Origin: Onthophagus taurus
Lineage: Eukaryota > Arthropoda > Insecta > Coleoptera > Scarabaeidae
Length of the DNA: 64,000 bases
Direction of reading: 5' to 3'
Assembly: GCF_036711975.1 (NCBI RefSeq)
Contig: NC_091966.1
Span: forward strand, 8,811,501-8,875,500
Under the pieces are notes generated by a model. The model was given only the letters and a program-made list of their open reading frames with translations. It did not search any database and had not been told where the DNA came from. Positions 9,536 to 64,000 of the stretch are shown in pieces (within the stretch, counting starts at the first letter, position 1; every line of letters begins with the position of its first letter). A program made the translations under genes and the position numbers.

Positions 9536-10873
9536 TATTCTGTTAACGGATATTGCTCTGACCCTATATCAGTTCCCTCGGGTGTCCCTCAGGGTAGCCA
9601 CCGCGGACCCTTGCTATTTAATCTTTATGTTAACGATATTTTCAAGGTTGTGAAACATTGTCAATGTCTAATGTACGCAGATGATCTCAAGCTTTATCTG
9701 CGTATCTCCTCTCCGTTGGACTGCTCTAGACTGCAGACTGACCTTCTCAGGATTTCTGACTTTTGTACTAAAAACCACTTGACCCTAAATCTGTCTAAAT
9801 GTAATGTTATTTCTTTTTCGAGAAGGAAGAATACTGTTCATTACGATTACAACATCGCTGGCGTAAACTTAACACGCGTTTCCTTTATTAGAGACCTTGG
9901 AGTGACTCTTGATCCCAAGCTTCTCTACGCACAGCACATTGACACTACTGTTAATAAGGCTTGGCGTATGCTCGGTTTCATTATGAGATCCACCTCTTCC
10001 TTTGTAAGCGTTGACGCGATTAAAAATTTATATTTCGCATATGTTTACAGTATTCTTAATTTTTGCACTGTAGTTTGGAATCCCCAATACTTTATTTATA
10101 TTGACCGAATTGAAAAAATTCAATCTAGATTTTTGAAATATCTAAACTTTAAATCTTCCATACATTATATTAATTATCATTCGTCTTGCAGATCTTTTCG
10201 GTTAATGCCCCTTCGACAACGTCGCCTGTGTAACGACACATTATTCTTCTACAAGGTTTTACACAATATGTGTGATTCCACAGTTCTTTTGAATTCGGTC
10301 AATATTCATGTACCTCCCCGTCTTCTTCGCTTTAATTTCTTGTTCTGTACGCCTATTCCGTGCACCAATGCTTTTCGAAACTCCCCTATGTTGCGAATGA
10401 CTCGTCAGGCTGATAAGCTCGATATTGATTTGTTTCAGCATTCATTTTCTACGTTTAGGCGCATACTTTTTAATGCAGTCAGCGAATTACCTCCTTCGTT
10501 TTGGTAGCTCGTTGGTTTCTGTTTTTGTATAATGTTTAATTTCGCCGTTACTATTGCTATTAGGCATTGTTTTATTTTATTTTACTTTTTGGCTTTTTTG
10601 CTTTATTGTATTATTATTATTGTTTTATTTTCTTTTATCTTTTTTTTTGTATATATATAATATCTGAATTCCGGTGTTTTTAGTTTAAGTTTAATTTTAT
10701 TTTTAATTGCTCGCCTTAATTTTGATAATTTTGATTTTTTCTTTATTCATTTTTCCTTGGTACACGTTTTCTTTTTTTTATTGTAAATTTTTTTCGTGGT
10801 ACAGATCATTTGGGTTTGTCCTGTTTCTGTACCCATAAATTATAAATAAATAAATAAATAAATAAAATAAATA
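9535..10873 (+). mobile_element. LINE (jockey-like), 5'-truncated, with reverse transcriptase C-half
   Basis: An open frame from about 9535 to 10507 covers the C-terminal half of a non-LTR reverse transcriptase: SGVPQGSHRGPLLFNLYVND (motif 4), then CLMYADDLKLYL with the catalytic YADD, LTLNLSKCNVISF, and LGVTLDPKLLYAQHI in the thumb. The frame from 9611 is uninterrupted for 298 residues, so the copy is fairly young. The N-terminal RT, endonuclease and ORF1 are missing, typical 5' truncation. The 3' UTR runs to a TAAA-repeat tail at about 10845-10873. Clade is tentative: jockey-like from sequence feel, not from a search. Confidence 0.85.
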
Positions 10874-21000: not shown

Positions 21001-23391
21001 AATTTATCTGTGTAATTCTAGACATATTCATGCAGTTTCGAGTATTCAATTGTAATTTTAGATATGTTCTTATAGTTGATCAGAATAATATTATGCATTT
21101 TCTTACAATGCAATATTTGTTGTGTAATTGCAGACTTTTTCATGAAATCTGTAGTTTAGCCAAAGTAACTGCAGATATTTTCTTCAACTCATTGCTATTT
21201 GGAGTTTAGCCAGTGTAATTCCAGACATTTTTTTGTAATTTAAAATTTTGCCAATATAATTGCAGATTTTAATCAGTGTAATTCTATAAATTTTTATCGT
21301 GCAGGGTTTTCCAAGGTAATTCAAGACACGTTGTTAGAGTTGTTACTATTTCTTCAAATATCAAGTTGAATCGGTGTAACTGCTGACATATTCAAAGAAT
21401 TTAGAAATTTGTCACTGTGATTCCAAACTCTTTCTCTAAATCTGGAGTTTGGTCAGTGTACTTCTAGACATTTGTCTGCAACGTAAAGTTTGGCCAGTGA
21501 AACCAGACAATTTCTTATGCTTTCGAATTTGGGTAGTGTAATTCTAGGTATTTTCTTGCAGTTCAGAGTTTTCCAGAATACATTTTTTTCAAACTTTTTT
21601 TGCAATTACAAATTTGATCACAGGGTAAGATGTAAACATTTTTTTGTAATTTAAATTATTTCGATGTAATTTCATACGTTTTTTGTAGCATTAATTTTCG
21701 CTAGAGTGAGAAATTGCAGACAATTTCTTGCAATTTAGAATTAAACAATGCTATTCCAAACATTTTATTGCTATTTTAAGTTTTGCTAATATGATAAAAT
21801 ATAATACATTTTCTCAAAATCTGGAAGTTGAGCAGTCTAATTGAAAACATTTTTTGCAATTTAATGTTTAATCAGTGTATTGCAGACATTTTCTTGCAGT
21901 TTAAAGTTTTGCCAACTTCAATATTATAAAAACGCATATATGTATGAGACATATGAAGCAATAATTGCAGAAGGAAAATGAATGGTAATTTAATTGCAAC
22001 AACAGCGGAATCTTAAACGAACTCAATCAGTTCATTCAATGCCTCGTTGGAAGCTCCAAAGACCCCAATAAGAATATCTGAATCGAACAAAACGTGATTC
22101 AATTAAATAAATTGTGCGAAAATTTATAAAATAATTGGATTTGGATTAGGTCTCCACAAACAACTATCTATCTAATCTAATTATCTTGTAATTAAGCAGT
22201 AAAAACATAAATAAACAAATCTATATAAAAGCAGAAAATAAATATATCTTTATGAAAATTGTTATTCTTGAAATTCTGAATCTCTCAATAACAGAGCCAC
22301 GATCCAATCAATTTAGAATTTCAAACCGAACGTCATTAAATTTTATTTCAATTCTTATCTAAAACTCCTTTAAACTGTAATGATACCATTTAAGTGTATC
22401 TTTAAGAGAATTATAACGTTCGTTTAATCTCAAATAAAATATGACAAATTCTTTTCCAAAATGAACTTCTTAATTAACTCATACCAACATTTTTAATTAT
22501 AATTACATAATACTATTTACACAAAAATATTAAAAAATATTTGTTTAAGGTTGTAAATTATATGGATTTATGGGTGGTTTAAGTGGAACAGTTTCGATAT
22601 GTTTATTAGCAGCTATATCCTACGATAGATTCTACGTAATAAGATTTCCTTTGAGAAAGTTAATAAATAAAGCCCACATTTACCCTCTAGTCGGGTTATC
22701 GTGGATTTACGGCATCGTATTTAGTATTATTCCAGTTTTAGACCTTGGATTTGGGAGTTACGTCCCGGAAGCGTATTTTATTAGTTGTAGTTTTGATTAT
22801 ATCACTCCAAGATTCGACATAAAAATTTTTATTCTTTCTTATTTCGTCGCTGCCTGGCTCGTCCCGTTTATAATAATTACATTTTCATACGTTAACATTA
22901 TTTGGGTGGTGGCAAGATCGAGGAAAGTAATCACCAAGAATTTATCAACGAAAGAAACTTATATTCACATGAAAAAAGAAGTGAAATTAAAACAAGAAAT
23001 GAAATTAGCCGTAACTGTTTTATTGGTGGTTTTGTTATGGTTTGTTGCTTGGACTCCTTACGCCACCGTTGCTTTATTGGGAATTTCAGGAGAATCGGAA
23101 TTAATAACTCCGGCTGTTTCTTTAGCTCCAGCTCTTTTTTGTAAAATGGCGAGCTGTCTCGATCCGTATGTGTATGCGTTTTCCCATCCGAAAATTCGAA
23201 AAGAAATCGATTTTATGTTATCGCAAAATTCGGCGACACGATTTTTTTGTCCGAGAAGAGTTTTGGAAAGAAGATTTACTCAGAGAATGAGCGAAAGGAT
23301 GTCGCAAAGTATTGAAGCTATCGAAGAAGTTGTCATGGTCACTTTACCTAGTGAGGAAGCACCCACACCACATATTTCACATCATATTTAA
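18098..23391 (+). CDS. r-type opsin (visual pigment-like GPCR), divergent, possibly Rh7-like
   Basis: Exons 18098-18366, 18467-18597 and 22550-23391 encode 413 residues with seven membrane segments. The retinal Schiff-base Lys is Lys332 (ALFCKMASC) in TM7, which separates opsins from other GPCRs. A Cys135 (GCKLYGF) to Cys213 (SCSFDY) disulphide is expected. The sequence YVPEAYFISCSFDYITP matches the conserved extracellular loop 2 of arthropod rhabdomeric opsins, and WTPYA and SHPKIRKEI match TM6 and helix 8. Departures: DRF (159-161) for DRY and DPYVY (338-342) for NPxxY. An upstream in-frame TTG at 18077 is not a likely start; ATG 18098 has a good context. The divergence points away from the standard LW and UV eye opsins; Rh7-like is a guess. 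Intron 2 is nearly 4 kb and repeat-filled. Confidence 0.9.
19230..21915. repeat. degenerate tandem repeat filling the opsin intron, unit about 41 bp
   Basis: An approximate unit, tttggccagtgtaattgcag followed by acattttcttgcaatttagag, recurs throughout, with heavy substitution and small indels. By length about 60 units fit, but many are barely recognisable. The degree of decay suggests an old array with no recent homogenisation. It lies wholly within the intron at 18598-22549. Confidence 0.8.
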
Positions 23392-39046: not shown

Positions 39047-39438
39047 TTTTTATAAATTTTGAAAAAAACTCAAAAAAAAAACACAAAACAACACTGAAAA
39101 CAGAAGAGAATACCACAAACCGTTTACTCACGTATACCCGACTTCTTCTGCAAGTCTTCAAAACACTTATAGTTCACAGCAAGTCGTTCAAGTTACTTCC
39201 AGCAAGCAACAAACACGTGTTTCCACATAATTGCTGCAAGTAACTTCTGCAAGCCGTGACTTCTGGAAGTCGACTTCTAATACGTGTTTACACGACAAAA
39301 ACTTCTGGAAGCAACTTCCGCAAGAAAACTTGGTAGTGGACACACGGCTTTAGTTCTAGTTTTAATTGTTTTCAGCGCTAAGTTGTATATTTTTAAGATT
39401 CGGGTTTAGCCCTGTGTCTTCAGACGCTGAATGTTAGG

Positions 39439-39950
39439 TAAGGTTAGTTTTGTTTACAAACATTAATTATACCATGAAGTATTCTTTGGCAATTAGTAAT
39501 GGCAATTATAGCGTGAAGTTTTCTTTTGTAATGTCAATTATAGCGTGAAGGAATGTTCAGTAAGGTTAGTTTTGTTTACAAACATTAATTATACCATGAA
39601 GTATTCTTTGGCAATTTGTAATGGCAATTATAGCGTGAAGTTTTCTTTTGTAATGTCAATTATAGCGTGAAGGAATGTGAGGTAAGGTTAGTTTTGTTTA
39701 CAAACATTAATTAAACCTTGAAGTTTTCTTTGGCAATTTGTGATGTCAATTATAGCGTGAAGGAATGTGAGGTAAGGTTAGTTTTGTTTACAAACATTAA
39801 TTATACCATGAAGTTTTCTTTGGCAATTAGTAATGGCAATTATAGCGTGAAGTTTTCTTTTGTAATGTCAATTATAGCGTGAAGGAATGTTAGGTAAGGT
39901 TAGTTTTGTTTACAAACATTAATTATACCTTGAAGTTTTCTTTGGAAATT
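39439..39950. repeat. tandem array, 122-bp unit, about four copies
   Basis: The start word taaggttagttttgtttaca occurs at 39439, 39561, 39683, 39773 and 39894, giving spacings of 122, 122, 90 and 121. Each full unit contains aattataccatgaag, two aattatagcgtgaag-type words and ttctttggcaat. The 90-bp unit is a deleted copy. Copies are very similar, so the array is fairly young. Confidence 0.85.
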
Positions 39951-51251: not shown

Positions 51252-51597
51252 GAAAAATATTCATTTTAATTTTGTTTTTGTCAAAATGACAAAGCTATTT
51301 TGTTGTCATTCTTATCTTATTTGTTACATCAATCTTTAAAGAGAAGGTTAAGTTCAAATGAATTTATAGAACTCGATTGTTAAGTGGTATTATAATGTGG
51401 TACACTAATGTAATGTGGTCTGAAGATGTAATGTGGTTAATCCCTAAACTTTCTAGTTCTAGGTCTAGTGGTAATTCCAGTTTTAGTTCAATGATAAATA
51501 CACAACAATCTAACGCTGAAAAACAACTAAAACTAGAACTAACACCCGCACACTGAGAGAAATGGATTGTACTATGCACTAAAAATATACTATAAGG
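51252..51597. other. intergenic with ctagttctag-type repeats; left target duplication of hAT composite 1
   Basis: Holds a cluster of tagttctaggtctagtggta / aaactagaactaacacc words at about 51450-51545. CTATAAGG at 51590-51597 is the left target-site duplication of the following element. Confidence 0.55.
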
Positions 51598-54500
51598 CGT
51601 AAGTGGTATCCATAACGTCGATCGCAAAGCAGTTTTGAGTCGATCGCCAAGAAAATCATGTATCTGAAATATCTATATCTGGGCCTCAGAACAAAAAAAA
51701 GGAAGGTTACTTTAAACCCTTCGGTCAATCTTGGCAAGACATTTATATAAAAAGTCGATTTTGATCAAAAATTAGTGGATACCACTGCTCTAAATCGATT
51801 AAACGTCAAAATTGTTGATTTTCGAAAATTAACTCAATCATAACTTAAAAACTAAAAGCGATGGAGAAATACTTTTTATACATAAAACCTTAGTAATGGG
51901 CCATAAAGACTAAATCCATAACAAGATTGAACCCAATTATTACCATTTTTTATTTATAAGCTCTAAACCGATTAAACATCAAAACTGTTGATTTTCGAAA
52001 ATTAACTCAATTATAACTCAAAAACTACAAGCGATGGGGAAATACTTTTTATACATAAAACCTTAGTAATGGACCATAAAGACTAAATCCGTAACAAGAT
52101 TGAACCCAATTATTGCCATTTTTTATTTATAAGCTCTAAATCTATTAAACATCAAAATTGTTGATTTTCGAAAATTAACTCAAACATAACTCATAAACTA
52201 AAAGCGATGGGGAAATATTTTTTATACATAAAACCTTAGTAATGGACCAGAAAGACTACATCCATAAAAAGATTGAACTCAATTATTACCATTTTTTATT
52301 TATAAGCTCTAAACCGATTAAACATCCAAATTGTTGATTTTCGAAAATTAACTCAATTATAACTCAAAAACTACAAGCGATGGGGAAATACTTTTTATAC
52401 ATAAAACCTTAGTAATGGACCATAAAGACTAGATCCATAAAAAGATTGAACCAATTATTACCATTTTTTATTTATAAGTTCTAAATCGATTAAAATCAAA
52501 ATTGTTGATTTTCGAAAATTAACTCCATCATAACTCATAAAATAAAAGCGCTGGTGAAATATTTTTTATACATAAATCTTGGTAATGGACCATAGAGAGT
52601 AGATCCATAAAAAGATTGAACCCAATTATTACCATTTTTTATTTATAAGCTCTAAATCGATTAAAATCAAAATTGTTGATTTTCGAAAATTAACTCAATC
52701 ATAACTCATAAAATAAAAGCGCTGGTGAAATATTTTTTATACATAAATCTTGGTAATGGACCATAAAGACTAGATCCATAAAAAGATTGAACCCAATTAT
52801 TACCATTTTTTATTTATAAGCTCTAAATCAATTAAACATCAAAATTGTTGATTTTCGAAAATTAACTCAATCATAACTCAAAAACTAAAAGCGATGGTGA
52901 AAAACGTTTTATACATAAAACCTTAGCAATGGACCAGAAAGGCTAGATCCATAAAAAGATTGAACCCAATTATTACCATTTTTTATTTATAAGCTCTAAA
53001 TCGATTAAACTCAAAATTGTTTATTTTCGAAAATTAACTCAATCATAACTCATAAAATAAAAGCGATGGGGAAATATTTTTTATACATAAAACCTTGGTA
53101 ATGGACCATAAAGACTAAATCCGTAACAAGATTGAACCCAATTATTACCATTTTTTATTTATAAGCTCTAAATCGATTAAACATCAAAATTGTTGATTTT
53201 CGAAAATCAACTCAATCATAACTCATAAAATAAAAGCGATGGTGAAATATTTTTTATACATAAAACCTTAGTAATGGACCATAAAGACTAGATCCATAAA
53301 AAGATTGAACCAAATTATTACCATTTTTTATTTATAAGCTCTAAACCGATTAAACATCAAAATTGTTGATTTTCGAAAATTAACTCAATTATAACTCAAA
53401 AACTACAAGCGATGGGGAAATACTTTTTATACATAAAACCTTAGTAATGGACCATAAAGACTAGATCCATAAAAAGATTGAACCCAATTATAACCATTTT
53501 TTATTTATAAGCTCTAAATCGATTAAAATCAAAATTGTTGGTTTTTGAAAATTAACTCATAACTCATAAAATAAAAGCGATGGGGAAATATTTTTTATAC
53601 ATAAATCTTGGTAATGGACCATAAAGAGTAGATCCATAAAAAGATTGAACCCAATTATTACCATTTTTTATTTATAAGCTCTAAATCGATTAAAATCAAA
53701 ATTGTTGATTTTCGAAAATTAACTCAATCATAACTCATAAAATAAAAGCGATGGTGAAATATTTTTTATACATAAATCTTGGTAATGGACCATAAACACT
53801 AGATCCATAAAAAGATTGAACCCAATTATTACCATTTTTTATTTATAAGCTCTAAATCAATTAAACATCAAAATTGTTGATTTTCGAAAATTAACTCAAT
53901 CATAACTCAAAAACTACAAGCGATGGGGAAATACTTTTTATACATAAAACCTTAGTAATGGACCATAAAGACTAGATCCATAAAAAGATTGAACCCAATT
54001 ATTACCATTTTTTATTTATAAGCTCTAAATCGATTAAAATCAAAATTGTTGATTTTCGAAAATTAACTCAATCATAACTCATAAAATAAAAGCAATGGTG
54101 AAATATTTTTTATACATAAATCTTGGTAATGGACCATAAAGACTAGATCCATAAAAAGATTGAACCCAATTATTACCATTTTTTTATTTATAAGCTCTAA
54201 ATCAATTAAACATCAAAATTGTTGATTTTCGAAAATTAACTCAATCATAACTCAAAAACTAAAAGCGATGGAGAAAAACGTTTTATACATAAAACCTTAG
54301 TAATGGACCATAAAGGCTAGATCCATAAAAAGATTGAACCCAATTATTACCATTTTTTATTTATAAGCTCTAAATCAATTAAACATCAAAATTGTTGATT
54401 TTCGAAAATTAACTCAATCATAACTCAAAAACTAAAAGCGATGGAGAAAAACGTTTTATACATAAAATCTTAGTAATGGACCATAAAGGCTAGATCCATA

Positions 54501-54855
54501 GAAAGATTGAACCCAATTATTACCATTTTTTATTTATAAGCTCTAAATCGATTAAACTCAAAATTGTTTATTTTCGAAAATTAACTCAATCATAACTCAT
54601 AAAATAAAAGCGATGGGGAAATATTTTGTATACATAAAACCTTAGTAATGGACCAGAAAGACTACATCCATAAAAAGATTGAACTCAATTATTACTATTT
54701 TTTATTTATAAGCCCTAAATCAGTGGTGGCCATAACGTCGATCGCCAAGAAAATCATGAATCTGAAATATCTATATCTGGGCCTCAGAGCAAAAAAAAGG
54801 ATGGTTACTTTAAACCCTTCGGTCGATCTTGATCAAAAATTAGTGGACACCACTG
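51598..54855. mobile_element. composite hAT-type element 1: MITE, 173-bp array, MITE
   Basis: Flanked by the 8-bp duplication CTATAAGG (51590-51597 and 54856-54863), the size made by hAT transposases. The right end is GGACACCACTG, and the left begins near GTGGTATCCATAACG, slightly altered at its first bases. The left module (51598-51787, about 190 bp) is a complete small MITE, ending GTGGATACCACTG. The right module (54721-54855) is a shorter version starting CAGTGGTGGCCATAACG. Between them lies the tandem array. No coding capacity. The single outer duplication suggests that the whole composite inserted as one unit. Confidence 0.8.
51788..54720. repeat. tandem array, 173-bp unit, about 17 copies
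   Basis: Successive copies of the word attgttgattttcgaaaatt lie 173 bp apart (51811, 51984, 52157, 52330 and on; the second copy has one change). Each unit runs through taactcaatcataactcaaa, aaactaaaagcgatgg, atacataaaaccttagtaat, gattgaacccaattattacc and ttatttataagctctaaatc. Some units are 2-4 bp shorter. Variants with shared changes (for example ataaatcttggtaat with actcataaaataaaa) recur in an alternating pattern, which points to amplification of multi-unit blocks. Confidence 0.93.
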
Positions 54856-54863
54856 CTATAAGG

Positions 54864-55779
54864 TATAATACGTTTACTACGAACAGTGACAGCGAGACGA
54901 GATTGTATTCAGTACAATAAATATAATACATTGATTTGCTGCATGTATACAATGAATTGCTGCATGTATAATATTTTTTCTATAATACGATTCGTACAAT
55001 CTATTTCTCTCAGTGCATTAGAACCAGCACTAGACCTAGAACTGGAAACATTCGGATTTAGCCGTCTTAAGAGACGTATGGCTAAACCCAAATGTTTCTA
55101 GTTCTAGGTCTGATGTTAGTTCTAGTGACAGTGCAAGTGTAAAACTAGAACTAACACTATACCTAGAACTAGAATCATTCGGGTTTAGCCGTCCTTAGAG
55201 ACGTTTTTATAATAAATTGCCAGTATCTATAACCGAATTAAATATAAAGAATTTTAATCGTAATGATAAGGATATGTTACTCGAAAATAAATTTTATAAA
55301 GTACCTGACGTGCGAAATTGCTAAGTTTAAAGATTATTATTATTATTGTTGTAGAACTAATGATGTATTAAATATAAAATATTTATAGTGTGACTTAAAA
55401 ATATTTTATCCGTTCTAACTAGGTTTTATTCTAATTGTATATCTTAAAAATAATTTTTAATTTTTTATTTATTTTTAAATTTAAATTTAGTGTCGCCATC
55501 TAAATACTAAAATCTTAATTTTCGTAGTTCACCTCTTAACCGTTAGTATCGCTACCGTTAGAGCGGCCATTTTTGTTTGTAACTGTTTTGAAGAAGTGGG
55601 GAGGTTGTAATCAAAACGATTTCTAAAGAAAATCTTACCTAAAGCGATGAAAAATTAAAAGACTTAAATGTTTAAAAGTGCTATGAGTTCACCGTGGACC
55701 CACCCTTGTACCTAACCGATATACTTTACAGTACGTTCCCAACCTTTTTCATAACGTTCGAGTTTGTCCGACGGCAATC
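54864..55779. other. intergenic and presumed 5' UTR/promoter of Polycomb
   Basis: At 55015-55200 there are again tagttctaggtctgatgtta / aactagaactaacac words with two gtctta-agac palindromes (gccgtcttaagagacg). From about 55540 the sequence is less AT-rich (gttagagcggccatttttg). No TATA box was seen, as expected for a housekeeping-type regulator. The ATG at 55780 follows. Confidence 0.5.
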
Positions 55780-58700: not shown

Positions 58701-61700
58701 CTCCTTAACTTCGCGCTCATTATTATAAATTATGCAATGAAATGATATGAAATCAGGAAACAGTTCATTTTATTTGCAAAGGGGTAAAAATCCATGATTT
58801 CCACCAATCAATTCTTTTTTCGGCAAATGACATAAAAGTTGCCATCATATCTGGACCTCGCGTTTTCCGCGTTTATGAAGTATTGTTAAAAATTAGTTAA
58901 GTATCAACGATATCTGTTGACTCGTCAAACTCCAACGAAAGAAACGGCAACTTTGTATGTCATCTTCAAATTGTCGTGTTGCATTTTTATTCATATCTTC
59001 AATACGACGAGTTACAGTTCTGCAGTTGGAAATTTCTCGCTGCCCTCAAAAAAAGCTTCCTTAAAAATTCACGATAAGGCTTTCTATGTTTTGCCAAAAC
59101 GTTTGTTAAGATATAATAGTTATGATAGCCTGTTATCGATCATTGTCATAATTTTCTGCAACATTTTTAGTACAAAGTGAAAACAAGTCTCTGTCGCAAT
59201 GAAATGTATTCATTTGCCTAATGAACAACAATATTCGTTATTTAATGAACAGTTTTCATTGTGTAATGAACAATTTTAATTGTTTAATGAACCATATTTA
59301 CTATTTAATAAAAAAAATTTCCTTAATAGAATGAAACTAATCTTTGTCTTAATGAATTATTTTTCTTTATTCAATGAATGAATTCATTAACATAGTGAAA
59401 TTGTTTCATTGTACCAATGAAGTGGTCTTCATTAATACAATGTAAGTACTACTGTGTTTTCTGATGTATATTAGGAAATAACATGTAGTTCCAAAATTTA
59501 TCTGTTTCTCATTGTTGTCATTATAATTACTTGAATGACTACTATAAGAAAAGACCAAAGTTTCAAGACTACATCTATACGAGTCACAAAAAAACGCTAC
59601 TCGACCGTGATAGTTTTTGACAAGGTATAATTTTGTGTGAAATCAGCAGAATAATTTATTTATATACTATTTCACGTTATTGTTATAAAGATAAAGCAAA
59701 AATTTTGAAGCAGAGTTGGTTATCTGTTACTGAAAAGTATCAAATCTAAATTCTTCTTCCTGTATGTTTTCATTGGTGGTGGCACTAAATTTTTATTGCT
59801 GGTTGAACACATGGCAAGGTTGCTGCGATATTAAAGTTTTTAGCTTCATCTATTGATATATCGTTAAAATTATCATTTGATATTAAGGAGTTTATAGAAG
59901 ATGCATTCGTAGAATAATGAACCCGAATGACATGTCTTTTAAAAGAAGCTAAATTTTGAAAACCCAGACTACATTCCACCTGAATGTGAAATTTGAGTTT
60001 GATTATGAAAACGTTTGAAATGGTTACTTAGAGATTGCATAACATAACATAAAGCATAACATGTTTGTTAATTTGAAAAGGTTGTTTTGTACCTAATTTC
60101 AATTTCAAAAAAAAATATTTTGCAATTAGTTCAATAGGTAAAGCTACCTATACAAGCTCAAAAAAAGCGAAAAGGGTTAGATAGCTATTTTTGTCTTACC
60201 TGTAGACACTATATATTTTTGGAAAAATACACACTTCTTCACTCAAATGATCACTGATACAGATGCCACAATGCGATTAGTTCACCTGATCTATGGTTAT
60301 AATATGTTATAAATAGCGCAGTGGTCTGACGATAAAGAAATCGCTCACTTAAATTCGCGGAATACGGCGGTGTAGCCAGTGCCATCATATTATGAATAAC
60401 ATATTTTTCAGTGTCCATAAGTGTCAAGATACGGGGTTTAATCAAAACATCATAACATTGAGGTTTATTGTATCATTTAATACACGACATCTCTCAATAT
60501 CATCCCAGTTATCTCTCAGAATAAAGCCTAACACCTATAAATCCTTCCAACATAATCTTTTTGGTCATGATAGTTTTTAACATCGTCCCGAATAATCTAG
60601 AATATCGTTCCTGGCCTCCTCAATCCCTCTACAGCATTACTATTAGCTTCCCACGTAATCACTGATATATTTCAAAATTATCCCAACATCAACATTTACC
60701 CCACAATCTATCGTGATCGTTTTTGATATCGCTAAACATTGTTTACGGTATCTCTCAACATCGTTTATAACATCAAATTAGTTCATGATCTTACCCGTGT
60801 CTCATCATCTTTACTAATAGCTATAAACATCGTTTTTTAAATATCTGAACATCCTTAACAATCTCAAACATTATCTACCTATGGTATCAAAATCGTTCGT
60901 CACATATCTAAACATAGTTCCATCACTCAACACAATCGTAGCCTCTCTCTGAAGAAATTTGTTATTTCTCATCATCTATTAACATCGTCCTTGGTATCCT
61001 TGAATATCAGGTCTAGCCTTCGTCAACAGCATCTATAACAGTGGTGTCCACTAATTTTTGATCAAGATCGACTTTTTATATAAATGTCTTGCCAAGATCG
61101 ACCGAAGGGTTTAAAATCGCTTTTAGTTTATGAGTTATGATTGAGTTCATTTTCGAAAGTCAACAACTTTGATGTTTAATCGATTTAGAGCTTATAAATA
61201 AAAAATGGTAATAATTGAGTTCAATCTTTTTATGGATCTAGTCTTTATGGTCCACTACTAAGGTTTTATGTATAAAAAATATTTCCCCGTCGCTTTTATT
61301 TTATAAGTTATGATTGAGTTAATTTTCCGAAATCAACAATTTTGATGTTTAATCGATTTAGAGCTTATACATAAAAATGGTAATAATTGGGTTCAATCTT
61401 GTTATGGATCTAGTCTTTATCGCCCATTACTAAGGTTTTATGTATAAAAAGTATTTCCCCATTGCTTTTACTTTTAGAGTTATGATTGAGTTAATTTTCG
61501 AAAATCAAGAATTTTGATGTTTAATCGATTTATAGCTTATAAATAAAAAATGGTAATAATTGGGTTCAATCTTGTTATGAATATAGTCTTTATGGTCCAT
61601 TACTAAGGTTTTATGTATAAAAAGTTTTTCCCCATCGCTTTTAGTTTTTGAGTTATTATTGAGTTAATTTTCGAAAATCAACAATTTTGATGTTTAATCG

Positions 61701-64000
61701 ATTTAGAACTTGTAAATAAAAAATAGTAATAATTGGGTTCAATCTTGTTATGGATTTAGTCTTTATGGTCCATTACTAAGGTTTTATGTATAAAAAGTAT
61801 TTCCCCATTGCTTTTACTTTTAGAGTTATGATTGAGTTAATTTTCGAAAATCAAGAATTTTGATGTTTAATCGATTTATAGCTTATAAATAAAAAATAGT
61901 AATAATTGGGTTCAATCTTTTTATGGATCTAGTCTTTATGGTCCATTACTAAGGTTTTATGTATAAAAAATATTTCCCCATCGCTTTTAGTTTATGAGTT
62001 ATGATTGAGTTGATTTTCGAAAATGAACAATTTTGATGTTTAATCGATTTAGAGCTTATAAATAAAAAATGGTAATAATTGGGTTCACTCTTGTTATGAA
62101 TATAGTCTTTATGGTCCATTACTAAGGTTTTATGTATAAAAAGTTTTTCCCCATCGCTTTTAGTTTTTAAGTTATTATTGAGTTAATTTTCGAAAATCAA
62201 CAATTTTGATGTTTAATCGATTTAGAGCTTGTAAATAAAAAATAGTAATAATTGGGTTCAATCTTGTTATGGATTTAGTCTTTATGGTCCATTACTAAGG
62301 TTTTATGTATAAAAAGTATTTCCCCATCGCTTTTAGTTTTTGAGTTATGATTGAGTTAATTTTCGGAAATCAAGAATTTTGATGTTTAATCGATTTGTAG
62401 CTTATAAATAAAAAATAGTAATAATTGGGTTCAATCTTTTTATGGATCTAGTCTTTATGGTCCATTACTAAGGTTTTATGTATAAAAAATATTTCCCCAT
62501 CGCTTTTAGTTTATGAGTTAGGATTGAGTTAATTTTCGAAAATCAACAATGTTGACGTTTAATCGATTTAGAGCAGTGGTCTCCACTAATTTTTGATCAA
62601 AATTGACTTTTTATATAAATGTCTTGCCAAGATCGACCGAAGGGTTTAAAGTAACCTTCCTTTTTTTTCCTCTGAGGCCCAGATATAAATATTTCAGATT
62701 CATGATTTTCTTGGCGATCGACTCAAAACTGCTTTGCGATCGACGTTATGGACACCACTGATCTATAATATGGCGCCCCTAAACATCTTTGCTAAAATCG
62801 TACATCTTTCCTGATATTATATCATGATATCTCTAATCATCTATTTTTCAATATTGTTCTTCACCGGCATACTTTATATTCTAGTCTATATTGGTCTTAA
62901 AGACATGTGACATGCTTATAACCACAGTCCAAAATTTGGCCAGACAAGCTGGTTTCAGGAAACACTATAGTTGTGCTTCCGCGTTGTTTGATCTAAATGG
63001 TGTCATCTTTAGGTTTCTTGATAAGTGAACTCAAAAACTTCAAGAATTAATAAATCATGATCTGTTGTTATTAAAATTGTGTTACAAATGAATTAGTAGT
63101 ATTAGTAGGTTCTGCAGCCTAACTGCCATGAATTGGTGATTTTCATTGATGGACTTTTTGCACCCTGAAAATTCTTTATGATGCACTTATTTGATTTATT
63201 TTCAATTAATATATCTTATGGTTCAAAGACTCAATGCAAAATTTTATTAATTAAAATTATTGTTTCAATTTTTATTAATTTTTATTATTTTTTTAAAAGG
63301 GTGTGGTGGAATATTACGTAAAATGGAAAGGTTGGGGTCCAAAACACAATACTTGGGAACCAGAAGAAAATATTTTAGACGTTCGCTTGATAGATTTATA
63401 CGAACGTTCACAAAGAAATGAAGGCGCCAAACGAGGTCCTAAAAGAAAACATCCGGATCGTTCTCAAACGACAGAAGAAGAAGTTCGACAAAGTGGTGAA
63501 GAAAGTCAAGATGAATCTACGCATTCTGTTAAAAAATCACCAGAATTACCAGCTTTAGAAGACGACGATACTCGCGTTGACGAAGATTTGGATACTCAAG
63601 ATGCAAAATCTGTTGATACAGATAACGAAAATAATAGTTCGAGTAGTGAAGATCGAAGACCAATTTTGGAGCGCTTAGAACCAACTAAACGTAAAGCGGA
63701 AGTTTTATCGAAAGAATCCGGTAAAACGGGGATTAAAATAACGACGAGTCCGACGGTTAGTAGTCCTCCACCTTTGAAAATCTCTAAGATTCATAAGGAA
63801 GAGGAGGATGCTTCAAATTTAGCGGTTTTACCAGCTACGACACCTAAATCTAACGCTGATAAAAAACCGAATGCTTTAGAAGGCTCTTTACCACATAGTA
63901 CACTAAAAGAACCTGCTTCTCCAAAACCAATCGCTTCTAGAACAAACGATAAACAACAAGAGAAAAAACCAGAAGTTAAACATAAAAATACCAGCCATAA
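55780..64000 (+). CDS. Pc: Polycomb (CBX) chromodomain protein, first two exons, runs off window
   Basis: Exon 1 (55780-55842) encodes [20 protein letters not shown] plus Lys. After a 7.46-kb phase-0 intron, exon 2 begins at 63300 (after ttttaaaag) with [13 protein letters not shown]. The chromodomain spans about residues 7-60. The H3K27me3 aromatic cage residues Tyr8, Trp30 and Trp33 are all present, and [20 protein letters not shown] matches animal Polycomb/CBX proteins. After it come a basic stretch ([11 protein letters not shown]), acidic and Ser-rich low-complexity sequence, and [18 protein letters not shown]. Polycomb reads H3K27me3 within PRC1 to keep developmental genes silent. The C-terminal Pc box is not reached, as 233 codons of exon 2 are still open at the window edge. 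The intron holds a hAT relic, Penelope-like and LINE scraps and the second hAT composite. Confidence 0.93.
56800..57240. repeat. degenerate aatatcttcaacaat / acatcgcttctgac repeat in the Pc intron
   Basis: Imperfect copies of a unit of roughly 25-30 bp built on words like acatcg(c/t)ttctgacata and tctcaacaa. Similar material resumes at 57600-57730, 60460-61030 and 62770-62870, so an old array seems to have been split by later insertions. Confidence 0.5.
57280..57540 (-). mobile_element. Penelope-like reverse transcriptase fragment
   Basis: The minus strand encodes [40 protein letters not shown] and then FVI. This matches the MGSPLSP..A...M...E.....P....W.RYVDDTF block of Penelope-like RTs, including both catalytic Asp. 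Flanking parts are absent. Confidence 0.65.
57917..59175 (-). mobile_element. hAT transposase relic (ZBED/SCAND3-like)
   Basis: On the minus strand, reading from high to low coordinates: [35 protein letters not shown] (the first catalytic Asp region), [37 protein letters not shown], then an intact C-terminal frame (58255-57920) with [20 protein letters not shown] and [19 protein letters not shown], the hAT dimerisation domain. The N-terminal zinc finger is missing and the upstream part has stops and frame changes. Whether this transposase relates to the CAGTGG-ended composites in the window is unknown. Confidence 0.75.
59215..59450. repeat. degenerate tandem repeat, tttaatgaacaattttcatt type
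   Basis: About eight imperfect units of 25-30 bp such as gtttaatgaacaattttcat. AT-rich, non-coding, in the Pc intron. Confidence 0.6.
59785..59979 (-). pseudogene. C2H2 zinc-finger-like fragment
   Basis: Encodes [20 protein letters not shown] followed by HYST, a single degenerate C2H2-type finger (C...F....F.RH...H) followed by a Ser/Asn-rich stretch. Probably part of a mobile element or a retrocopy; no adjacent coding exons found. Confidence 0.35.
60460..61038. repeat. degenerate atctctcaacatcgtt repeat in the Pc intron
   Basis: Units of about 25-30 bp around words such as tatctctcaacatcgtttat, catcgttcctggcctc and aacatcgttttttaaatatc. It continues the pattern of 56800-57240. The hAT composite 2 is inserted in it, its left duplication ATCTATAA at 61031-61038 lying within this repeat. 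Confidence 0.5.
61039..62760. mobile_element. composite hAT-type element 2: partial MITE, 173-bp array, MITE
   Basis: Flanked by the 8-bp duplication ATCTATAA (61031-61038 and 62761-62768). Terminal inverted repeat CAGTGGTGTCCA at the left (61039-61050) and TGGACACCACTG at the right (62749-62760). The left module (61039 to about 61112) is a partial MITE (ACTAATTTTTGATCAAGATC and onward); the right module (62574-62760) is complete, starting CAGTGGTCTCC. The array between is the reverse complement of that in composite 1. The structure is the same as composite 1 in inverted orientation, and the duplication sequences differ, so these are two separate insertions. Confidence 0.88.
61113..62573. repeat. 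tandem array, 173-bp unit, about 8 copies, inverted relative to the first array
   Basis: Same unit as 51788-54720 read from the other strand: atgattgagttaattttcga, aatcaacaattttgatgttt, aatcgatttagagcttataa, ataattgggttcaatcttgt and ccattactaaggttttatgt. The unit pair at about 61430-61760 reappears nearly unchanged at 61780-62290, so a block of two or more units was duplicated. Confidence 0.92.
62925..63050 (+). mobile_element. LINE reverse transcriptase scrap
   Basis: Encodes [20 protein letters not shown], resembling the QxGFRxxxSCxxAL block of LINE RTs. About 100 bp, in the Pc intron. Weak. Confidence 0.35.

Follow-up and report, generated by a model that had tools for sequence, protein, structure and literature searches.

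In a 64-kb stretch of Onthophagus taurus DNA (NC_091966.1, positions 8,811,501 to 8,875,500, hereafter the window), two arrays of a 173-bp tandem repeat are each enclosed by two copies of a short miniature inverted-repeat transposable element (MITE) of the hAT type. We conclude, with a probability of about 90%, that such a structure is a non-autonomous hAT composite, or macrotransposon, which carries satellite DNA as its cargo and moves as a unit. In the following, M denotes the short hAT MITE that flanks the array, and a composite consists of two Ms in direct orientation with the 173-bp array between them. The original prediction had proposed that an array trapped between MITE ends became a transposable composite, and this main inference is supported by a genome-wide family, by target site duplications, and by empty sites.

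Architecture of the composites in the window

Composites A and B have the same plan, namely, M, then the 173-bp units, then a second M, with both Ms in direct orientation (Table 1). Tandem Repeats Finder (TRF) counted 17.1 units of this period in A and 8.4 in B. That the two loci have a common plan, opposite orientations and different 8-bp duplications had been predicted and can be read directly in the sequence. The prediction had also described a small MITE and a second MITE module; modules indeed flank the array, but both are copies of one MITE in direct orientation. Nor are the modules intact in both loci: the left end of A is altered, and B has retained only the outer part of its right module. 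The boundary of A could nevertheless be placed at its altered left end, which reads CGTAAGTGG and not CAGTGG, because three empty sites fix the insertion point exactly there. A search for direct and inverted repeats around the flanks of composite A revealed nothing further on A.

Table 1. Composites A and B and associated features, in positions of the window
Feature	Position	Strand	Evidence
Composite A, whole element, 3,258 bp, bracketed by two CTATAAGG	51598-54855		
High-copy repeat of ~200 bp, ends CACTGAGAGAAAT / ATTTCTCTCAGTG, split by composite A	51551..55015	+	
A, left target site duplication copy, CTATAAGG	51590..51597	+	sequence; single copy in three empty sites
A, left M (long type), first bases CGTAAGTGG for CAGTGG	51598..51787	+	
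A, 173-bp tandem array, 17 units, from unit position 1 (CTCTAAAT) to position 8 (CCCTAAAT)	51788..54720	+	
A, right M (short type), inner end CAGTGGTGGCC	54721..54855	+	
A, right target site duplication copy, CTATAAGG	54856..54863	+	sequence; empty sites
Composite B, whole element, 1,722 bp, reverse orientation, bracketed by two ATCTATAA	61039-62760		
B, target site duplication (ATCTATAA on +)	61031..61038	-	
B, right M, outer 77 bp retained, inner part deleted	61039..61115	-	
B, 173-bp tandem array, 8.4 units	61116..62573	-	
B, left M, 187 bp, inner end adjoins array CTCTAAAT	62574..62760	-	
B, second target site duplication copy (ATCTATAA on +)	62761..62768	-	

A genome-wide family with fixed junctions

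The genome examined comprises 290.8 Mb in 33 contigs. With up to three mismatches, the pattern of the left inner junction (M end followed by CTCTAAATCGATTAAA) had 127 matches and that of the right inner junction (..AAGCTCTAAAT followed by M start) had 131, compared to 6 and 3 matches of the reversed controls, while a 47-mer of the 173-bp unit matched 2,338 times versus 0 times in the control. Because these numbers far exceed those of the controls, the recurrence is not due to chance. The junction lists contained the best 100 of the 127 and of the 131 matches, from which 12 and 18 words that looked array-internal were dropped by hand, so that 88 left and 82 right junctions were retained among the matches listed. 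They place one or more inner junctions at at least 114 distinct loci on 9 contigs, of which a few weak matches may be false.

A right junction could be paired with 51 of the left junctions, again among the matches listed; the pairings include a locus on C8 with the order array-M-array, and two left junctions on C3 share one right junction. When 67 merged stretches were compared with the Basic Local Alignment Search Tool, most had a left M, an array running from unit position 1 to position 8, and a right M, and truncated or missing modules were also present. The left Ms are 78-207 bp long (median 178, n=37) and the right Ms 83-181 bp (median 165, n=39). In 50 left-right pairs among the matches listed, the arrays, as counted in the assembly, comprise 2.9-46 units with a median of 11.3. 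Classical satellite DNA forms long arrays in heterochromatin; arrays of this size may be missing from the list or from the assembly. At both inner junctions the phase of the unit is fixed, and the array length minus 8 bp is within 0.06 of a whole unit number in 29 of the 50 pairs. A phase overlap of 8 bp is the expected trace of the target duplication from a MITE insertion into the array, and CTCTAAAT matches the target preference seen at the outer ends, which suits an insertion of M at that array word. As in composite transposons, the cargo is flanked by two whole copies of an element, and the target duplication encloses both of them.

It had been predicted that array copies throughout the genome would be bounded by the MITE. 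On C1, two unit patterns marked 26 array clusters, one of which turned out to be a different repeat with a spacing of 358 bp. M or a remnant of it was found at 24 of the other 25, 23 of them with a listed junction or an M 5' end within 2.5 kb and one with a truncated M.

Target site duplications, empty sites and linked inner ends

The outer 8-mers were scored for 24 composites, including A and C3:24440880, for which they were entered by hand (the ends of C3:24440880 fall in two loci, and automatic reading of A gave five mismatches owing to its altered left end). As foreseen for further copies, the two 8-mers of a composite correspond, with different sequences at different sites: the match is exact in 16 of 24 cases and has at most one mismatch in 20, whereas 552 non-cognate pairs, which served as control, yielded no exact match and 21 with at most one mismatch. 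The 20 target 8-mers with at most one mismatch all have T at position 4, and 19 have A at position 5. A TA-centred target is a feature of Buster-type hAT elements.

Within the same genome, empty sites were found for A and, among two other composites that were searched, for one. A search with the joined flanks of A gave 43 rows (the best 40 of 137 candidates were scored), 39 of which are other copies of the ~200-bp repeat with a match that spans the insertion point of A. Three copies of this host repeat were read letter by letter, and each has one CTATAAGG and no composite sequence. For the 1,740-bp composite at C7:18042008-18043747, two spanning empty copies exist (93 and 94% identity), again with one GTATATAT each. 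Composite A, including its array and both Ms, appears to have jumped as one piece. The conclusion of movement as a unit follows from the target duplications, from the empty sites, and from the linkage of the inner ends.

This linkage was analyzed in 16 composites, that is, the 17 pairings in which both Ms could be read minus the array-M-array locus on C8; the widest composite in the set spans 7.9 kb. T at the left inner end is combined with A at the right inner end in eight composites and C with G in the other eight, while mixed combinations are absent (Fisher p 1.6e-4). The right outer letter follows this type in 15 of the 16 and reads G in one. Left and right Ms can be told apart by an indel and several letters. 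The long stretch is present in 25 of 37 left and in 0 of 39 right Ms, and for 64 of 65 Ms the nearest neighbor is on the same side (among modules of 125 bp or more, after removal of three odd ones). Position 9 is A or G in 39/39 right inner ends and T in 35/37 left outer ends (the M of the array-M-array locus is included in both sets), and in subfamily 2 the left inner end is mostly ACACTACTG and not ACACCACTG. On the basis of these letters, the inner ends of composites probably have lost their function or retain it in reduced form.

The MITE and its relationship to hAT elements

M has the features of a MITE: it is short and non-coding, it has inverted ends, and it occurs in solo copies with target duplications. 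The 8-bp duplication, the short CA..TG inverted ends and the TA-centred target are those of hAT elements. The outer ends of composites are inverted (CAGTGGTG/CACCACTG, of the CAGTG..CACTG type). Among Ms that were found by a fuzzy match to such ends, the outer left end reads CAGTGGTGTCC in 27 of 37 and the outer right end ACACCACTG or ACAACACTG in 30 of 39.

MITE-only loci, with which the composites were to be compared, were sampled via twelve M 5' ends from an exact-match list, none of which is at a listed junction. Half of them (6/12) proved to be solo MITEs of 146-207 bp with outer 8-mers of their own that match, as judged by eye, exactly in four cases and with one mismatch in two. Of the other six, L092 and L099 are composites whose left junction is damaged or shifted, L097 is a hAT deletion copy of 742 bp, and L091, L098 and L101 are other or longer copies. 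L097 has retained both M ends and is bracketed by an exact CTGTATAA duplication; it contains an open frame of 134 amino acids with a transposase fragment. Over 96 residues, a 108-amino acid part of this frame has 41% identity with a frame of 562 amino acids, which itself scores 23.6 bits on the hAT dimerisation domain PF05699 (cut-off 21.4). The 108-amino acid fragment itself had no credible match in Pfam, and searches of Pfam and PDB with M-linked transposase fragments yielded no credible match either. Judged from these sequences, M derives from a hAT element by deletion. Among the matches listed, with exons scored apart, fragment copies that are at least 64% identical have frames of 43-210 amino acids, and long frames of up to 651 amino acids occur in relatives that are at most 52% identical.

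Two candidate sites were rejected. C1:18056766 was considered as an autonomous element, since a hAT dimerisation domain is present 3.4 kb downstream of it, but an 851-bp piece around this domain has no match to M; the protein with this domain resembles another family, and the proximity is probably a coincidence. Similarly, an 861-bp piece at C3:16216481 has no M match. A promoter-like scan of M and the fold of its single-stranded DNA (z -2.54) contributed nothing to the argument. Close to the 742-bp copy there is a different tandem array with a unit of 189 bp and 7.5 copies (L103 523-1935; C3:6306248-6307660).

Divergence, length change and possible decay of the array

In a set of 68 arrays with 523 units, the units diverge by 5.8% within loci and by 6.9% between loci. 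The nearest neighbor of a unit is in its own locus in 181 of 523 cases, compared to ~8 in label shuffles. These values indicate that arrays travel as mixed populations of units and that some local duplication occurs. Arrays also differ slightly between the M subfamilies (distance 0.0673 within versus 0.0688 between, a difference attained in 2 of 2000 label shuffles), and a comparison of the likeness of first and last units revealed a small position-specific effect (0.068 versus 0.071 and 0.072).

Length change in place can be followed at two composites, C8:17966433-17968737 (L085) and C8:18424367-18427201 (L086), which have flanks of ~150 bp with 95 and 97% identity and the same right-side 8-mer. 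They are therefore taken as paralogous copies of one insertion, and yet their arrays differ, with three units in L085 and six in L086. The two copies sit in an inverted segmental duplication.

Two single cases look like decay products of composites. One is the M-free array C1:1169949-1172874, and the other is the solo MITE L100 (C6:19520365), which combines left-type 5' letters with right-type 3' letters and is bracketed by an exact ATCTATAA duplication. L100 may be a composite that collapsed by recombination between its two Ms. A repeat with a spacing of 358 bp at C1:4654700-4657500 (ends L108 and L109) has only short motifs in common with the 173-bp unit, which suggests a wider family of related satellites.

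Proposed mechanism

The scenario that we infer concerns the founding insertion or insertions, the identity of the transposase, the functional loss of the inner ends, the rise in copy number, and present mobility. M would have come to flank a stretch of an older 173-bp array at CTCTAAAT, the hAT-type target word of this array. A hAT transposase would then have acted on the outer ends of the pair, 5' on the left M and 3' on the right M, thereby excising everything between them, and the composite would have been reinserted with a new 8-bp duplication. Copies may have risen in this way to ~100 loci that form at least two subfamilies. The inner ends would have drifted from the functional end sequence, and by this drift the composite would have become the moving unit, whose cargo array gains and loses whole units in place. 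We lean, by a small degree, towards the broader view that, in this genome, the 173-bp satellite is confined almost entirely to hAT composites with decayed inner ends, which carry it as cargo, that the M pair and the array together form one selectable mobile unit which plants expandable arrays in the chromosome arms and decays into M-free arrays and solo Ms, and that the dispersal is thus by transposition and not by recombination.

Alternative explanations

The modules could be the two halves of one element, if a single MITE had captured an array or had grown it internally, as has been proposed for miDNA4 in Xenopus. MITEs of such a kind are known (PMC12628747), and the same outer ends and 8-bp duplications would result. 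However, each of the two modules is a whole MITE that has its own 5' and 3' ends, the two point in the same direction, M also occurs alone with target duplications, and an 8-bp word is repeated at the start and the end of the array, as expected from MITE insertion into an array. A derivation of the array from the MITE was rejected, because M and the unit align locally no better than expected by chance (the score is reached by 371 and 59 of 500 shuffles for the two strands). An internal origin is thus improbable. More of a contender is a variant of the founding step which is compatible with later movement as a unit, namely, that only one M inserted and was then duplicated by unequal exchange to give M-array-M. 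The letters AAG, which occur in left Ms and in subfamily-1 right Ms where four of six solo Ms (L094, L095, L096, L102) read AAC, speak for this variant; the solo M L100 also has AAG. Further support comes from the locus C8:5385672-5387647, which has the order array-CTCTAAAT-M-CTCTAAAT-array without an outer M and reveals that M does occur inside an array at this word. Yet the M at this locus carries subfamily-2 right letters and need not be ancestral, the left and right Ms differ by the indel and the letters described above, and this difference would also be explained if M had inserted twice, in different units but at the same preferred word. Founding by one insertion plus duplication, which we rate at slightly below even odds, and founding by two insertions are both possible.

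A hAT target preference could also bring Ms repeatedly to the same array word, and the MITEs might have been inserted independently beside pre-existing dispersed arrays, so that nothing moves as a unit. Yet the outer duplications do match across the array, the inner ends are linked, and the empty sites that were read lack the array and both Ms together. As a general explanation it has hardly any chance of being correct: independent insertion is refuted for the composites that have matching outer 8-mers and empty sites, and it could hold for some of the others. Elements with long terminal repeats (LTR) and terminal-repeat retrotransposons in miniature (TRIM) have direct repeats with TG..CA ends and duplications of 4-6 bp, and Helitrons make no target duplication. 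It is true that the modules are direct terminal repeats and that Helitron-type elements often carry central repeats (PMC12628747). The 8-bp TA-centred duplications, the inversion of the outer ends and a piece of transposase flanked by M ends make either origin extremely improbable: the CAGTG..CACTG ends and the 8-bp duplications led to the rejection of an LTR/TRIM identity, and the duplications also to that of a Helitron identity. A foldback element, which has long inverted terminal repeats, was rejected because the modules are in direct orientation.

Several observations weigh against the composite as a moving unit. The array C1:1169949-1172874 is the only one of the 25 on C1 without M. Of 68 array rows, 28 ran beyond the retrieved sequence, and in the 40 that were covered on both sides both outer ends were recognized in 23 and not in 17. 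The four remaining composites of the 24 with scored 8-mers have 2, 4, 6 and 8 mismatches between their sides, although the left end was poorly recognized in three of these, and the search for an empty site of the composite C7:33145055 found no junction-spanning copy. Whole-sequence distances of left and right Ms are uncorrelated (r -0.16 in a Mantel test of 14 pairs, a value reached by 3707 of 5000 shuffles). Lastly, no intact transposase with M-like ends was found among the matches listed.

Other features of the window

Between 7256 and 51251 of the window, eight reading frames were scanned, and six of them, on both strands, contain a lipase domain (PF00151). The other two encode a rhodopsin-type receptor (22570-23391) and a reverse transcriptase (9611-10507). 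At 39429-39950 there are tandem repeats whose periods range from 90 to 212 bp and which, according to TRF, are distinct from the 173-bp unit.

Relation to known systems and implications

Huang and Dooner are said to have described in 2008 that, in maize, linked Ac/Ds elements of the hAT family in direct orientation mobilise the DNA between them. Macrotransposition of Ac/Ds reportedly concerns single events at marked loci, in contrast to the amplified family with a satellite cargo described here. For tandem repeats, a review of 2019 proposed, with the words "we can further speculate", that repeats between two cut-and-paste transposons are mobilised via the inverted ends of both, and likened this to bacterial gene transfer (PMC6947457). 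The layout proposed in that passage is the same; here it is represented by a family dispersed through the genome, for which target duplications and empty sites are observed.

Tandem repeats are a well-documented feature of some MITEs and other DNA transposons (PMC12628747, PMC9659126, PMC10048060, PMC2872659, PMC4079207). The Xstir / Xmix MITE and miDNA4 of Xenopus also join a MITE to an array of variable length; in Xstir the units may stem from the interior of the MITE, and miDNA4 belongs to the Tc1/mariner MITEs (PMC12628747, PMC9659126), whereas the unit in O. taurus is not detectably related to M, the ends are of the hAT type, and a whole MITE is present on each side. Tetris of Drosophila virilis is likewise a non-autonomous DNA transposon with internal tandem repeats of ~220 bp and duplications of 8-10 bp. 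It is, however, a foldback element with the repeats inside long inverted repeats, for which the authors suggest a Mutator relationship (PMC4079207), in contrast to one array between direct MITEs. Helitrons, Helentrons and their relatives resemble the composites in that dispersed short satellite arrays form the core of a mobile element (PMC12628747, PMC10048060), but they are rolling-circle elements, while the composites have cut-and-paste ends and 8-bp duplications. A hAT MITE of the Atlantic cod was also inserted repeatedly at closely spaced sites, in that case at inversion breakpoints; in the cod the MITEs themselves are in tandem (PMC12368964), whereas here two MITEs enclose another repeat and appear to move it.

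The original prediction knew of no described element of this kind. As far as the cited texts go, the route was already in print as a speculation (PMC6947457), and MITEs with internal tandem repeats were known (PMC12628747, PMC9659126), so that this point is answered in part; searches of openly licensed PubMed Central papers revealed no family of this build. The composites look like a clear instance of this route, in the form of a satellite-carrying hAT macrotransposon.

How satellite DNA reaches scattered chromosomal sites is an open question, for which the reviews consulted point mostly to Helitrons and recombination. The composite family offers a cut-and-paste answer that can be checked site by site, via duplications, empty sites, linked end variants and changes in array length. 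In this family, a pair of MITEs appears to act as a composite transposon in a eukaryote, which for tandem repeats had been a speculation in one review (PMC6947457).
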